Of a stretch of 37,713 nucleotides of DNA, positions 1-37,713 are shown one piece after another. Origin of the DNA: a bacterium (GTDB lineage: Bacteria; Acidobacteriota; Thermoanaerobaculia; Multivoradales; JAHEKO01); NCBI GenBank assembly GCA_024224155.1, contig JAAENP010000469.1, positions 1 through 37,713 of the forward strand, written 5' to 3'. A model generated the notes under the pieces. That model was not told the origin of the DNA. It ran no database searches and was given only the letters and a program-made list of their open reading frames with translations. Made by a program: the position numbers and the translations under genes. How positions within the stretch are numbered: position 1 is the stretch's first letter; each line of letters begins with the position of its first letter.

Positions 1-537
1 GGTTGCGCAGGACTCTGCCGCCGCGATGCCGTTTCCGAGGTGGTGGGCGACCTCTTCAGGGGCGGGCTGGACGTCGCCCTCTAGCCAAACGCGGGCCAAC
101 GCACACCGCTCGACGAACGGGGCCTGTTCGCAGGCTTGCGTCGCTGCGCAGAGTATCTGCTCCCCATCCTTGCTCACCAGGGCCTGGGCGGTCGCTACGG
201 CGATGAGCACCGCGCCCTCCACGCCGAGTGGATGTGCGTGGGTAATCTGGGCCGACAGGCGGGCGGCCGCCGCGTTGACTTCACTGAAACGCTGGCTGGC
301 CCGGAAGACCTCCATGAACTCTCGAGTTTGCGTTGCGATCTTGCGCAGCTGGAAGAACTTGGCGAGCATGATGCTCCAGGTCACGATCGACATCACGCCG
401 AGGACCAAGAAGACGAGCTTGGCGATCGGCCCCGAGCTCCAGAAGAGCTCGAAGATAGATGGCTCCGCGCCGGCTCCGGTCTGGAAGAATAGAAACAATG
501 GGTGAGCGAGTGGCATAGAGCGGGACGAAAGTAACAT
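1..537 (-). CDS. Hybrid frame: TolQ-like N-terminus joined to C-terminal half of an ARH3-like ADP-ribosylhydrolase (partial, runs off edge)
   Basis: This frame is open from ATG 537 (or ATG 516) to the window edge, 179 codons. Residues 1-90 resemble the start of TolQ/ExbB/MotA proton-channel proteins: a short periplasmic stretch, 'IFELFWSSGPIAKLV', then one hydrophobic helix (about 39-59) and a basic cytoplasmic region. From about residue 95 the sequence no longer resembles TolQ. It resembles ADP-ribosylhydrolases of the ARH3/DraG family: 'ITHAHPLGVEGAV' corresponds to the family's LTH..LG..GA segment and 'EEVAHHLGNGIAAAES' to its LGNGIAA.ES segment. The switch lies near nt 249-273. The N-terminal half of the hydrolase fold is missing, and the GGDTDT metal-binding segment would lie beyond the edge. 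Either a rearrangement or an assembly join is possible. The identities are by memory of family motifs, not by search. Confidence 0.6.
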   Translation of the reverse strand, partial: MLLSSRSMPLAHPLFLFFQTGAGAEPSIFELFWSSGPIAKLVFLVLGVMSIVTWSIMLAKFFQLRKIATQTREFMEVFRASQRFSEVNAAAARLSAQITHAHPLGVEGAVLIAVATAQALVSKDGEQILCAATQACEQAPFVERCALARVWLEGDVQPAPEEVAHHLGNGIAAAESCAT

Positions 538-740: not shown

Positions 741-1535
741 ATGAAGATTGCGGTTTGCATCAAACAGGTGCCCGATACCGAGGCGCGCTTGCGGGTGCGC
801 AGTGACGGTCTCGGAGTCGACGAGGAGGATCTGCCTTTCGTCATCAACGAAAGCGATGGATACGCACTCGAGGAGGCGCTGATGATCGCCGAGAAGACGG
901 GGGGTGATGTCGTCGTCTTCAGTCTTGGCAGCGAACGAGTGCGCGAGGCGCTGCGCAAGGCTCTGGCTCTGGGCGCGACGCGGGCCGTCCACCTCGACGA
1001 TGTGGCCTTCGCGGGCGGCGACGCCATGGCCACCGCAAGAGCGCTGGCGGCCGCCATCGATGGCGAAGAGTTCGACCTGGTTCTGACCGGGTCCCAGTCG
1101 GACGACGCCGGCTACGGCTCGACCGGCTCGATCGTGGCCGGTCATCTGGGATGGCCGCACGCCTGGCTGGTGATGGGAGTCGAGGTCGAAGACGGCGAGA
1201 GCTCGGCTCGTGTCACCCGCGAGATGGAGAGCGGCGTCAACGAGGTGCTCCGGCTCGCGCTGCCGGCGGTGATCGAGGTGCAAGCCGGGATCAACCAACC
1301 CCGCTACGCGTCTCTCAAGGGCATCATGCAAGCGAAGAGAAAGGAGATCGCAGGCAAGAGTGCAAGCGATCTGGGCCTTTCCGAGAACGAGGTCGGTGCC
1401 GCCGGATCGCGCCTCGAAACACTGGCGGTCTTCTTTCCGGAGAGTGGAGAGACGGCCGAGATCTTCGAGGGCGATCCCGCCGAAAGCGCCCGCCGGCTAG
1501 TCGAAAAACTCCAGAAGGAAGCGAGGGTCCTCTAA
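741..1535 (+). CDS. etfB: Electron transfer flavoprotein, beta subunit
   Basis: This 264-residue protein starts 'MKIAVCIKQVPDTEARL', the characteristic EtfB opening. It contains the AMP/FAD-domain segments typical of the family ('FVINESDGYALEEAL', 'LTGSQSDDAGYGSTGS'). EtfB pairs with EtfA to carry electrons from acyl-CoA and other flavoprotein dehydrogenases, usually to ETF-quinone oxidoreductase. ATG 741 was chosen because the family begins with this motif and a purine-rich GAGAGGTGGGG precedes it; the frame itself stays open further upstream. The stop directly abuts etfA (0 nt), so the subunits are co-transcribed and probably coupled. No ETF-QO or acyl-CoA dehydrogenase lies in the window. 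Confidence 0.95.
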   Translation: MKIAVCIKQVPDTEARLRVRSDGLGVDEEDLPFVINESDGYALEEALMIAEKTGGDVVVFSLGSERVREALRKALALGATRAVHLDDVAFAGGDAMATARALAAAIDGEEFDLVLTGSQSDDAGYGSTGSIVAGHLGWPHAWLVMGVEVEDGESSARVTREMESGVNEVLRLALPAVIEVQAGINQPRYASLKGIMQAKRKEIAGKSASDLGLSENEVGAAGSRLETLAVFFPESGETAEIFEGDPAESARRLVEKLQKEARVL

Positions 1536-7851: not shown

Positions 7852-10242
7852 TTAGGTCTCGACGCCAAGAAACGTGTAGAGCGAAAGCAGCATGAACGCC
7901 AGGCTCGGGGCCCACACGGCGAGCCGCGGCGGCAGGGCACCGGTCTCGCCGAGCGTGCTGCAAAAAGCGACCGTGGCCAGAAACACCATACCCAGAACCA
8001 GGCCGAGACCGATACCGTAGAGCGCGCCTTTGCGCCCCATGCGGAACGCGAACGGGAGCGCCACGAATCCCATCACCAGAAACGTCGCCGGGTAGCTCAC
8101 CTTGTAGTGAAGCTGAGTCCAGAGCTCGGGTACCGCCTGGCCGCTGGCCTCGAGCTCTCCGATGTAGCTCTTGAGTGCCCGGTAGGAAAGAGCATCGGGC
8201 GTGCGGATCTCCGACTCGAAAAACTCGGGCGTCTCCGGGAACTGGCCGATGGCGTTCTTCAGTACCGGCTGGTAGCCGGTTTGGGTGAGACCGTTGAAGG
8301 ACCGCGTCCACACGTTCTCGAAAACCCAGCCGTCGCCGACATAGCGGGCCTTTTCGGCATAGAGGCGGCTGATCAGCCGGTGGTCGGAGTCGAACTCGAA
8401 GATCTGGAGCCGGTGGAGCTGCTTCGCCTCGGTGTCGTAGTTGAGGTAGTTGTAGATATAGCGATCCTGGCCGAAGAGCCAATTCCGATCGCCTCGCCGG
8501 TAGCTGTGCACCAGCTCGCGCCCGCGGATCTCGTCATTGAGCTGGGCGGCGCGCTGGTTGGCGGCGGGCAATACCCGCTCCTGGAGCCAGCCTCCGAGCA
8601 GCGAGACCAGCAGAGCGGTGCCCAGCGCGGGAACCGCCAGTCGGTAAACGCTGATACCAAGAGACTTGGCCGCAATGATCTCGTTGGTTCGCGAGAGAAC
8701 GCCGAAGATCACCAGAATCGTCACCAGGATCGCGATCGGAGCCACATCGAAGCCGATCTGCACCGAGGCGTACTTGTAGTAGTCGAGCACTGTCGTGAGT
8801 GGGATCTCGTTGTCGAGGATCTCGTCGATCTTCTCGGTCAGGTCCGAGATCGAAAAGAGGGTCAGCCCCGAGAGCAGAACCAGCGCAAACACGGACGCGA
8901 AGAGCCGGCCGATGTAGCGATCCATCAGATTCGGAAACCGAACCAGGATCTTGGGAATTCGAAGGACGAGCCCACCCGGCACGGCTCCCGACCTTGCTCG
9001 GGGGGGCGCGCCCCCGACGCGGTGGGTCGCGGTCTTTTTCCGGCGCCGAAACATGCGCACCAGCTTGTGGACTCGGGGGACGACGCTGGATCGGAGCCAG
9101 TAGTCGATGGGGCCCGGCAAGAGCGGCTGATCCTCGTTCTTGCGGAGCAGCAAGATCAGGCCGAGCGTGCCAAGCAGAAGGTTGGGCAGCCACATGGATA
9201 GCCAGGCGGGCATGCGTCCGTACCGGGCGGCCTCTTCGCCGTTGCTCATCATCACGTAGTGAAGAATGATCACCGCCAGCGACAGACCGAAGCCGGTGCC
9301 ACGACCGCCTCTCGCCTTCTGGATTCCGAGCGGCAGGGCCAGAAGGCCGTAGATCAGGCAAGCGGCTGGGAGCGCGAACTTCTTGTGGATCTCGACGTTC
9401 GCCAGATTGCGCAGCTCGTCGGGTAGGGAAGGGTCCTTCAGGCGGGCGCGCAGCTCCGGGACCGTCAGCTCTCGCAGCCCTCGCGAGGAGCGGCGCTTCA
9501 GGTTTGCCGCCGTCGCGAGTGGGTCTTCCAGAACCTGGTTCACTTCCTCGTAGCGGCGAGTTTCGTACTGTTCGGCGTCGCGCAGATTCACCTTGTGTTC
9601 GACACCCTCGACGAGCTTGAGGATCAGCCGATCGGGGTTGGTGGGATCGGCGCGCATTTCCCCCCGCTGGGCCACGCTGATCTCATTGCCCGAGCCAGGC
9701 AGAACCTTGGCCACGAATACGCCCGTCCACTCGTCGTCCCCGGGAATCGCCTCGAAGACGTAGATCATCAGACCGCGCCATTCCTCGTAAAAGACGCGCG
9801 GCTCGACCTGCCTCGAGGCCGAAGAAGTGAGGATCCGGAGCCGCAGGTCCTGAAGCTCGGCGTTGCCCTTTGGCAGAGTGTCCAGCATCAGGAAACCGTT
9901 GACGATCATGAGGAGCGTCCCGATCGCCACGATCGGGCGCAGGAGCCGCCAGAGGTTCACTCCGCTCGAGCGCAGCGCGACCATCTCGCTGTCCGACGAC
10001 ATTCGGCCGATCGCCACCAGCACGGCGAACAGAAAGGACATCGGGATGGTCAGAACGATGATGTTCGGAAGGGTAAGGACGAGGAGTTCACCGATCTGAG
10101 AGGCCGGAACACCGCGCCGGATGATCATCTCCGCCGAGCGGAACAGAAACTGAACCAGCAGGATGAAGGTATACGCGAAGAAGCCCAAGAAAAGGGGGCC
10201 GGCGATCTCTCGCATCAGGTACCGATCCAGGCTGGGAAACAT
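7852..10242 (-). CDS. lptF-lptG: Fused LptF-LptG lipopolysaccharide export permease
   Basis: This 796-residue protein carries two complete LptF/LptG (YjgP/YjgQ) permease units in one frame. Unit 1 (about 1-390) opens 'MFPSLDRYLMREIAGPLFLG', with membrane helices on both sides of a periplasmic beta domain. A basic linker of about 50 residues ('RRRKKTATHRVGG') follows. Unit 2 starts at about residue 440 with 'MDRYIGRLFASVFALVLLSG' and repeats the plan to the end. In known systems LptF and LptG are separate chains of the LptB2FG ABC exporter. No stop or frameshift separates them here, so this is a genuine one-chain heterodimer as read. ATG 10242 matches the conserved start; the frame is open further upstream. 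Partners lptB and lptC/A lie at 21968-24708. Confidence 0.92.
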   Translation of the reverse strand: MFPSLDRYLMREIAGPLFLGFFAYTFILLVQFLFRSAEMIIRRGVPASQIGELLVLTLPNIIVLTIPMSFLFAVLVAIGRMSSDSEMVALRSSGVNLWRLLRPIVAIGTLLMIVNGFLMLDTLPKGNAELQDLRLRILTSSASRQVEPRVFYEEWRGLMIYVFEAIPGDDEWTGVFVAKVLPGSGNEISVAQRGEMRADPTNPDRLILKLVEGVEHKVNLRDAEQYETRRYEEVNQVLEDPLATAANLKRRSSRGLRELTVPELRARLKDPSLPDELRNLANVEIHKKFALPAACLIYGLLALPLGIQKARGGRGTGFGLSLAVIILHYVMMSNGEEAARYGRMPAWLSMWLPNLLLGTLGLILLLRKNEDQPLLPGPIDYWLRSSVVPRVHKLVRMFRRRKKTATHRVGGAPPRARSGAVPGGLVLRIPKILVRFPNLMDRYIGRLFASVFALVLLSGLTLFSISDLTEKIDEILDNEIPLTTVLDYYKYASVQIGFDVAPIAILVTILVIFGVLSRTNEIIAAKSLGISVYRLAVPALGTALLVSLLGGWLQERVLPAANQRAAQLNDEIRGRELVHSYRRGDRNWLFGQDRYIYNYLNYDTEAKQLHRLQIFEFDSDHRLISRLYAEKARYVGDGWVFENVWTRSFNGLTQTGYQPVLKNAIGQFPETPEFFESEIRTPDALSYRALKSYIGELEASGQAVPELWTQLHYKVSYPATFLVMGFVALPFAFRMGRKGALYGIGLGLVLGMVFLATVAFCSTLGETGALPPRLAVWAPSLAFMLLSLYTFLGVET

Positions 10243-10327
10243 GGCACTCGAGCTTATCGAAGAAGGCAGCTGACGGAATCCAGGAAGTCGTCGCAGTGCC
10301 GAGCTGGCGGGACTTGATCCGGTGAGG

Positions 10328-10356
10328 GTAACCCAGGGGCCGAGAGGAGATGTCAA
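10328..10356 (-). promoter_or_regulatory. Possible promoter upstream of lptF-lptG
   Basis: On the minus strand a perfect TTGACA (10356-10351) is followed after 17 nt by a weak GGTTAC (10333-10328), about 85 nt before the gene. The poor -10 keeps confidence low. Confidence 0.3.
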
Positions 10357-10422
10357 GAGGGGGGGTTGGATCGGTTTTATATGCGGAGTCCGATAAGATA
10401 GGTTATGTAAACCAACGCTCAT

Positions 10423-34872: not shown

Positions 34873-35016
34873 TGCGTATTCCGGCGCATCGTGATCACTG
34901 ATTCCGCTGGAACGTGATCACCGATTCCGGCCATTGTGATCACTGATTCCGGCGAACGTGATCACCGATTCCGGTCATTGTGATCACCGATTCCGGTGAT
35001 CGTGATCACTCCTCGG
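34873..35016 (+). repeat. IS left-end array of about 22-bp transposase-site repeats
   Basis: GTGATCAC(C/T)GATTCCG(G/C) units begin at 34891, 34914, 34936, 34958 and 34980, and a diverged unit begins at 35002. Spacing is 23, 22, 22, 22 and 22 nt, two helical turns. The terminal unit (34873-34884) keeps only the ATTCCGG half. Confidence 0.85.
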
Positions 35017-35064
35017 TAGCGAGATCGTGCACTCTGGGCCCTTCCCGGAAAGGAGGGCTTGGAG

Positions 35065-36624
35065 ATGGCAGCAAAGAGGCTACCGATGAGGAAGATCCGA
35101 GAGATTCTGAGATTGAAGTACGAGGTGGGGCTGACCCACCGTGCGATCGCACGCGCCTGCTCGGTGGGAGTGGGCACCGTGTCGCTGTATGTAACGCGAG
35201 CGCGGGAGGCGGGGCTTGTCTGGCCGTTGCCGTTGGAGATGGACGAGGCGGCACTCGAGGCCCGACTGCTGCGCGGTCCCCGGTCGCCGACGGGCGCGCG
35301 ACCGCAGCCGGAGGTGGCGCACATCCACGAGGAGCTCAGGCGGGTGGGCGTGACCTTGCACCTGCTGTGGATGGAGTACCTCGAGGTCCACCCGGACGGC
35401 TACCGCTACAGCCAGTTCTGCGAGATCTACCGGCGCTGGGCGAAGAAGCTCGATCCGTCCATGCGCCAGCGCTATCGGGCCGGCGAGAAGGCGTTCGTCG
35501 ACTACTCGGGCAAGAGGCCACACATCGTCGACCGTCGCACTGGAGAAGAGATTCCGGTGGAGCTGTTTGTCGGCGTCCTGGGAGCCTCGAGCTACACCTA
35601 CGCTGAGGTGACAGCGAGCCAGGAGCTTCATAACTGGATCGCCTCGCACACACGGATGCTCGCGTTCTTCTCGGGCTCTCCCGAGATCTACGTCCCGGAT
35701 AACCTAAAGAGCGGGATCACCAAGCCGTGCCGCTACGAGGCCGGGGTCAACCGCACTTATCAGACGCTGGCCGAGCACTACGGCGCGGTGGTCATCCCGG
35801 CTCGTCCAGGCAAGCCCCGCGACAAGGCCAAGGTCGAAGCCAACGTCCTGGTCGCCCAACGCTTTATCCTGGGCGCGCTGCGCGATCGAACGTTTTTTAG
35901 CCTCGCTGAGTTCAACCAAGCGATCCGCGAGAAGCTCCTCGAGCTCAACAACCGACCGATGCAGCACCTGGGCGCGAGCCGCCGCGAGCTCTATGAGCGG
36001 CTCGATCGACCGGCCTTGAAGCCCTTGCCCGCTGAGCGCTACCAGATGGCCGAGTGGAAGCCGTGTCGAGTCAACATCGACTACCACGTCGCTGTCGAGC
36101 GTAACTACTACAGCGTGCCCTACCAGCTCGTCGGTGAGCTGCTGGAGGCTAGCTTCACGCCGACGATCGTCGAGGTCTACTCCAAGTCCAAACGCGTAGC
36201 GTCGCATCGCCGGCTGGCTGGCCGCGGCCAGGCCTCGACCGTCCCTGAGCACATGCCCCGCTCGCACCGGGCCCATGCCGAGTGGACCCCGTCGCGGCTG
36301 GTGCGCTGGGCACAGAAGACCGGCCCCGCGACCGGCCGCCTGGTGGCCGAGATCCTCAATCGACACCGACACCCCGAGCAGGGCTACCGTGCCTGCCTGG
36401 GGATCCTGCGGCTGGGCAAACGCTACGGCAGCGAGCGGCTCGAAGCCGCCGCGCGGCGCGCCGAGCGCCTGCGCTCCTACAGCTACACGACGATCAAGAA
36501 CATCCTCTCCTCGGGGGCCGACCGGCTCCCCCTGGAGGAGGAGTCTGAAGCTCCGGACCCGACGCCCCACCACGACAACATCCGCGGCGCCACCTACTAC
36601 GCCGCCAAGGAGATCGAATGCTGA
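35065..36624 (+). CDS. istA: IS21-family transposase IstA
   Basis: This 519-residue transposase has an N-terminal helix-turn-helix ('LTHRAIARACSVGVGTVSLYV') and the DDE integrase core. Asp146 is in 'FVDYSGKR', Asp212 in 'YVPDNLKSGI' and Glu258 in 'PRDKAKVEANVLV'. A C-terminal Mu-type beta-barrel region follows ('VAVERNYYSVPYQLVG'). ATG 35065 is preferred over TTG 35059 because AGGAGG (35051-35056) is then 8 nt away. The stop overlaps istB by 7 nt, giving coupled translation. All catalytic residues are present. Confidence 0.95.
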   Translation: MAAKRLPMRKIREILRLKYEVGLTHRAIARACSVGVGTVSLYVTRAREAGLVWPLPLEMDEAALEARLLRGPRSPTGARPQPEVAHIHEELRRVGVTLHLLWMEYLEVHPDGYRYSQFCEIYRRWAKKLDPSMRQRYRAGEKAFVDYSGKRPHIVDRRTGEEIPVELFVGVLGASSYTYAEVTASQELHNWIASHTRMLAFFSGSPEIYVPDNLKSGITKPCRYEAGVNRTYQTLAEHYGAVVIPARPGKPRDKAKVEANVLVAQRFILGALRDRTFFSLAEFNQAIREKLLELNNRPMQHLGASRRELYERLDRPALKPLPAERYQMAEWKPCRVNIDYHVAVERNYYSVPYQLVGELLEASFTPTIVEVYSKSKRVASHRRLAGRGQASTVPEHMPRSHRAHAEWTPSRLVRWAQKTGPATGRLVAEILNRHRHPEQGYRACLGILRLGKRYGSERLEAAARRAERLRSYSYTTIKNILSSGADRLPLEEESEAPDPTPHHDNIRGATYYAAKEIEC

Positions 36625-37379
36625 CCCAAGAGACCCTGGACAAGATGCGCACGATGAAGATGGCCGACATGGCCGAGGCCTTCACCCAGCAGATGGGCTC
36701 GAGCGAGTATGCCGAGCTGAGCTTCGAAGAACGGGTGGGGCTGATGATCGACACTGAGTGGATCGCCCGCGAGCAGCGCAAGCTCACTCGGCGGCTGCGA
36801 ACCGCGAAGCTACGCTATCCGGCCTCGCTCGAAAACGTCGACTTCAAGGCCGCGCGCCAGCTCAAACGCCAACAGGTCCTGTCGCTGGGCACCTGCGCCT
36901 GGATCCAGGAACGCCACAACCTGGTCGTGACCGGGCCGACCGGAATCGGCAAGTCCTATCTCGCCTGCGCCTTCGTCGAGCGCGCCTGCCGCAAGGGCTT
37001 CAACGCCTACTACGTGCGCACACCAAGGCTTTTACACCAGCTGGCCGTGGCCAAAGGCGACGGCTCCTACCATCGGCTGCTGACGCGCTTGGCGCGGCTG
37101 CATCTCTTGGCCATCGACGACTGGCTGCTGGCACCGCTCAAGGCCTCTGAGAGGCACGACCTCTTGGAGGTGATCGAGGACCGAAGCGAGAACGCCTCGA
37201 CGCTGGTCGCCAGCCAACTCGATGTCGAGGACTGGCACACCGGCATCGGCGATCCCAACCAGGCCGACGCCCTGTGCGACCGACTGCTCCACAACGCCCA
37301 TCGCATGAAGCTCAAGGGACCCTCGATGCGCAACCCCGAGCCAGATACCCCCAAGCGCAGCAAGAAGGCCAGCCAGTGA
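36618..37379 (+). CDS. istB: IS21-family helper ATPase IstB
   Basis: This 253-residue AAA+ ATPase has an N-terminal helical domain, Walker A 'GPTGIGKSYLACAF', Walker B 'HLLAIDDWLL' and the sensor 'TLVASQLDVEDWH'. IstB assembles on DNA and activates IstA for target joining. It begins 7 nt inside the end of istA. Length and motifs are normal. The C-terminal tail is basic and Lys-rich. Confidence 0.95.
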   Translation: MLTQETLDKMRTMKMADMAEAFTQQMGSSEYAELSFEERVGLMIDTEWIAREQRKLTRRLRTAKLRYPASLENVDFKAARQLKRQQVLSLGTCAWIQERHNLVVTGPTGIGKSYLACAFVERACRKGFNAYYVRTPRLLHQLAVAKGDGSYHRLLTRLARLHLLAIDDWLLAPLKASERHDLLEVIEDRSENASTLVASQLDVEDWHTGIGDPNQADALCDRLLHNAHRMKLKGPSMRNPEPDTPKRSKKASQ

Positions 37380-37612
37380 GAGACGTCGCTTGCGCTCCGA
37401 CGGCTTTAGGGAGACCCGCGGAAGCTGCCGGGACCGTGGAAAACGCTACCCCCTCAACCCCCGCGTTTCCCACCGCCCCTTGGACGGCGCCTCCGGCGCC
37501 GACCACAGCTCCCGCAGGCCCGGCGGCGGCGAAAAGAGAGCCAAAAAAGGTCGAAGAGTAAGATGTCCCGACTTGAGACAAGGAGGCCGATGAACCGCTA
37601 ATCGTCGCTACG
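37380..37612. other. Non-coding tail of the IS between istB and the right-end repeats
   Basis: Short frames cross this stretch on both strands, but they are low-complexity Ala/Pro-rich translations with no ribosome site or family resemblance. I see no gene here. Confidence 0.5.
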
Positions 37613-37712
37613 CTCCGAGGAGTGATCATGATCACCGGAACGAGTGATCACGATCACCGGAACGAGTGATCACGTTGCCCGGAATCGGCGATCACAATCA
37701 GCGGAATCCGCA
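37613..37712 (-). repeat. IS right-end array of 22-bp repeats
   Basis: Units begin at 37613, 37635, 37657, 37679 and 37701, exactly 22 nt apart, in inverted orientation to the left array. The inner unit here (with CCGAGGAGTGATCA) mirrors the innermost left unit (TGATCACTCCTCGG). Confidence 0.85.
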
Positions 37713-37713
37713 C

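Follow-up and report, generated by a model that had tools for sequence, protein, structure and literature searches.

A TolQ–ADP-ribosylglycohydrolase hybrid reading frame at a contig end is very probably a chimera of the assembly

Chimeric contigs that arise from k-mers shared between genomes are described in a review on metagenome assembly (PMC7299287). The locus reported here resembles such short-read chimeras in several respects: the join is close to where the contig ends and falls in a short sequence which both parents may share, the interrupted gene has its true continuation elsewhere in the bin, on a different contig, and the other end of the contig carries an exact 141-base overlap. It can also be compared with two protein families, TolQ (MotA/TolQ/ExbB family, PF01618), whose pore helices lie in the MotA_ExbB domain, and the ADP-ribosylglycohydrolases (ARH, PF03747), which in full-length form match the profile with both halves of the fold. 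With TolQ it shares 96 N-terminal residues and the gene neighbourhood but lacks the C-terminal pore-helix part, whilst with ARH it shares 83 residues but lacks the first half of the protein, and its end is cut by the contig. We conclude, with a probability of about 0.94, that the TolQ–ARH hybrid is an assembly chimera at the contig end, that it is not a real feature of the genome and that no new protein is encoded here.

The window (the whole stretch of DNA analysed, 37,713 bases) is the entire contig C469, one of the 576 contigs that make up a draft genome of 5,714,182 bases, whose completeness is estimated at 96.59% and contamination at 3.03%. On the minus strand, a frame runs from the ATG at position 537 to base 1 as 179 stop-free codons and is cut off by the contig end; a start further upstream, at the ATG at 678, is possible too. 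An earlier note, made from the sequence alone, had described a single uninterrupted frame in which a TolQ-type membrane helix and neck give way to ARH motifs, and our analysis bears out this description. The note had placed the change of family near nt 249–273; the switch itself stands, and its position is narrowed to 250/249 by the DNA similarity of the window to two tolQ genes (contig C129 of the same bin and the congener G001), which ends exactly at window 250. The join is thus 249 bases from the left end of C469, and the G+C content is 68% in 1–249 vs. 60% in 250–538.

The segment at 250–537 (minus strand) is a genuine 5′ part of tolQ, comprising 96 codons for the N-terminus, the first membrane helix and the neck. 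Its residues share 81% identity with the congener TolQ over query residues 14–97, and it is divergent from etfB (741–1535, plus strand; PF01012, e-value 4.5e-43), a conserved neighbour of tolQ, so that both N-terminal similarity and synteny identify the gene. A Pfam search with 250–537 alone returned no match, because the MotA_ExbB profile spans only the C-terminal part of TolQ that is missing here, in keeping with the absence of pore helices noticed earlier. The missing part sits on contig C129 (35,610 bases), which breaks off within tolQ. Between its terminal 157 bases and window 250–406, 150 of 157 positions are identical (95.5%) in a gap-free alignment bounded by window 250 and by the end of C129. 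From there C129 holds the remainder of TolQ up to the stop codon, with a MotA_ExbB match at an e-value of 2.9e-33, followed in translation by a TolR-like frame. The check for tolQ elsewhere in the genome, which the earlier note had proposed, thus recovered the rest of the gene on another contig of the bin. As 7 of the 157 bases (4.5%) differ between the two contigs, C129 is not proved to continue the tolQ of the very same strain.

This divergence implies that two strains may be present, which would also suit a different reading, namely that one strain bears a real scar of recombination or deletion, where illegitimate recombination at a short stretch of common sequence cut tolQ short and placed the last part of an ARH gene behind it. 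Such a scar would need a strain without a working TolQ, and its breakpoint would have to fall less than 250 bases from a contig end and in the same gene in which C129 also ends. Nor is it seen in any relative: the ARH segment was beside tolQ in none of the 29 relatives' tolQ loci that were read, drawn from 48 other genomes matching the TolQ part, and it was matched in none of 58 relatives at an e-value ≤ 0.001. We consider a scar of this kind very unlikely.

In all 29 of these loci tolQ extends beyond the join point, as it also does on C129; the earlier note had taken a relative with a normal continuation of tolQ at this place as the mark of an artefact. The divergent arrangement of etfB and tolQ was found in 25 of the 29, whilst in the other four (L010, L024, which is cut by the contig end, L031 and L034) etfB was not in the stretch read. 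The congener G001 possesses the same divergent etfB/tolQ pair as the window and encodes a full-length TolQ of 236 residues. No TolQ–ARH hybrid was seen among the 48 matching relatives: with three exceptions, the alignments reach no further than residue 97. Two of the exceptions, L009 and L016, are ordinary full TolQ proteins, and the third is a second match in G024 (e-value 5e-4) that was left unread.

Apart from that one unread match, the same survey bears on the idea, also offered in the earlier note, of a real and functional membrane-tethered TolQ–ARH fusion protein. What speaks for it is the single open frame without a stop, against which both domains are incomplete, the ARH part lacking profile positions 1–143 and the TolQ part the whole MotA_ExbB domain, and none of the relatives surveyed displays the hybrid; we give this reading almost no credence.

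The remaining segment, at 1–249 on the minus strand, is a piece of an ARH gene, 83 codons long, that runs off the end of the contig. It contains the stretches THAHPLG.EGA and LGNGIAA.ES, in which the earlier note had seen ARH motifs, and the residues encoded by 273–4 match PF03747 with an e-value of 3.2e-9 at profile positions 144–237 of 287, whilst the 1–249 segment alone still matches at 4.9e-8. The match starts at profile position 144, so the first half of the hydrolase fold (positions 1–143) is indeed missing, as had been suspected; the ARH relatives L037 and L038 carry this half upstream. The search for an intact ARH gene elsewhere in the genome was negative: the own bin shows no PF03747 match besides the fragment, no second copy of the segment and no other contig that continues the ARH side. 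In 395 other genomes of the phylum the segment had three matches (51%, 52% and 34% identical), a search of genome contigs gave four relatives (best 55%), plasmids gave five records (best 45.7%) and viral contigs none. No close parent of the piece was therefore found in genome contigs, viral contigs, plasmids or 396 genomes of the phylum, the best relatives sharing 51–55% identity, and the ARH piece is most likely foreign to its position. A native origin in the lineage was considered, as PF03747 genes occur in 7 of 17 other genomes of the family, including both congeners (G001 and G002), yet it was rejected given that the window's segment matches none of the 58 relatives. The full-length PF03747 genes of the congeners (G001 C129:29318–30205 and G002 C100:2815–3702) are of a different kind from the window fragment.

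The two parts meet at the AARLSA codons (250–267, minus strand), a peptide common to TolQ and to an ARH protein at this place. At the join, AARLSASPLVG is the sequence of TolQ in both C129 and G001, and the ARH protein of Marinobacterium arenosum (L038) natively reads AARLSAQITHAHPL at the corresponding place, the same as the window, whilst the other ARH relatives (L037, L039 and L040) do not have the complete AARLSA. Both families can accordingly contain the word at the join, read in the same frame, and for this reason a false join would be in frame and free of stops. The earlier note had called the in-frame, stop-free junction striking; the observation is correct, but it is accounted for by the shared frame of AARLSA. 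At the base level, the window and the C129 tolQ agree at all 15 bases next to the join, beyond which there is one mismatch, the comparison on the ARH side being that of the AARLSA peptide in L038. The base alignment with L037, which was out of register, and the frames of L042 and L044, which were in the wrong orientation, were left out of the analysis. An identity of 15 bases with C129 falls short of the k values normally used and so counts against a k-mer join, but the match to the tolQ of the strain itself may be longer.

Short homology at the junction is also what illegitimate recombination would leave behind. A true tolQ–ARH fusion formed in this way in one strain, anchoring the ARH fragment in the inner membrane, seems to us highly improbable; were it true, it would represent a membrane-anchored ADP-ribosylhydrolase fragment unseen in any relative searched. 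We favour an assembly chimera instead, because tolQ continues on C129, the synteny of the locus is conserved, the break lies at a contig end and the peptide at the join is shared. The lack of a second ARH copy in the bin, the step in G+C content and the 141-base overlap with C186 speak for it as well. Of the three explanations offered in the earlier note, an assembly join near the contig end is thus the one supported by the C129 continuation and by all 29 relatives. Most likely, at least two strains differing in tolQ were present, so that tolQ broke in the assembly, as suggested by C129 ending there with a 95.5% identical overlap. At the break, the assembler would have carried C469 through the short sequence common to tolQ and ARH (the AARLSA codons) and into 249 bases of ARH; both genes read this word in one and the same frame, so the join would introduce neither a frameshift nor a stop. 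The case shows how draft genomes can acquire apparent ‘fusion proteins’, in frame and without stops, when contigs are wrongly joined at a coding word that two genes have in common; comparing contig ends with other contigs of the same bin exposes such joins.

The opposite end of the contig also bears a sign of the assembly. The last 141 bases (37573–37713) overlap exactly with the end of contig C186, at 100% identity between the two contig ends, and the 142nd base differs. Exact end overlaps of this length are typical of contigs from a de Bruijn graph with k = 141. The same end carries an IS21-type insertion element (34880–37713, plus strand), in which one frame matches Mu-transpos_C_2 and rve and a second one IstB_IS21, with inverted arrays of 22-base repeats on both sides. 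C469 ends inside the right array, in which the overlap with C186 lies, and the repeats also match contig C88.

Elsewhere on the contig, LptF and LptG are apparently fused in one frame of 856 residues (7855–10422, minus strand), with PF03739 matched in two stretches. This frame has a match in 25 of 26 genomes, its own included, and as the match covers most of the length in most relatives, the LptF–LptG fusion seems to be characteristic of the order and not an artefact.
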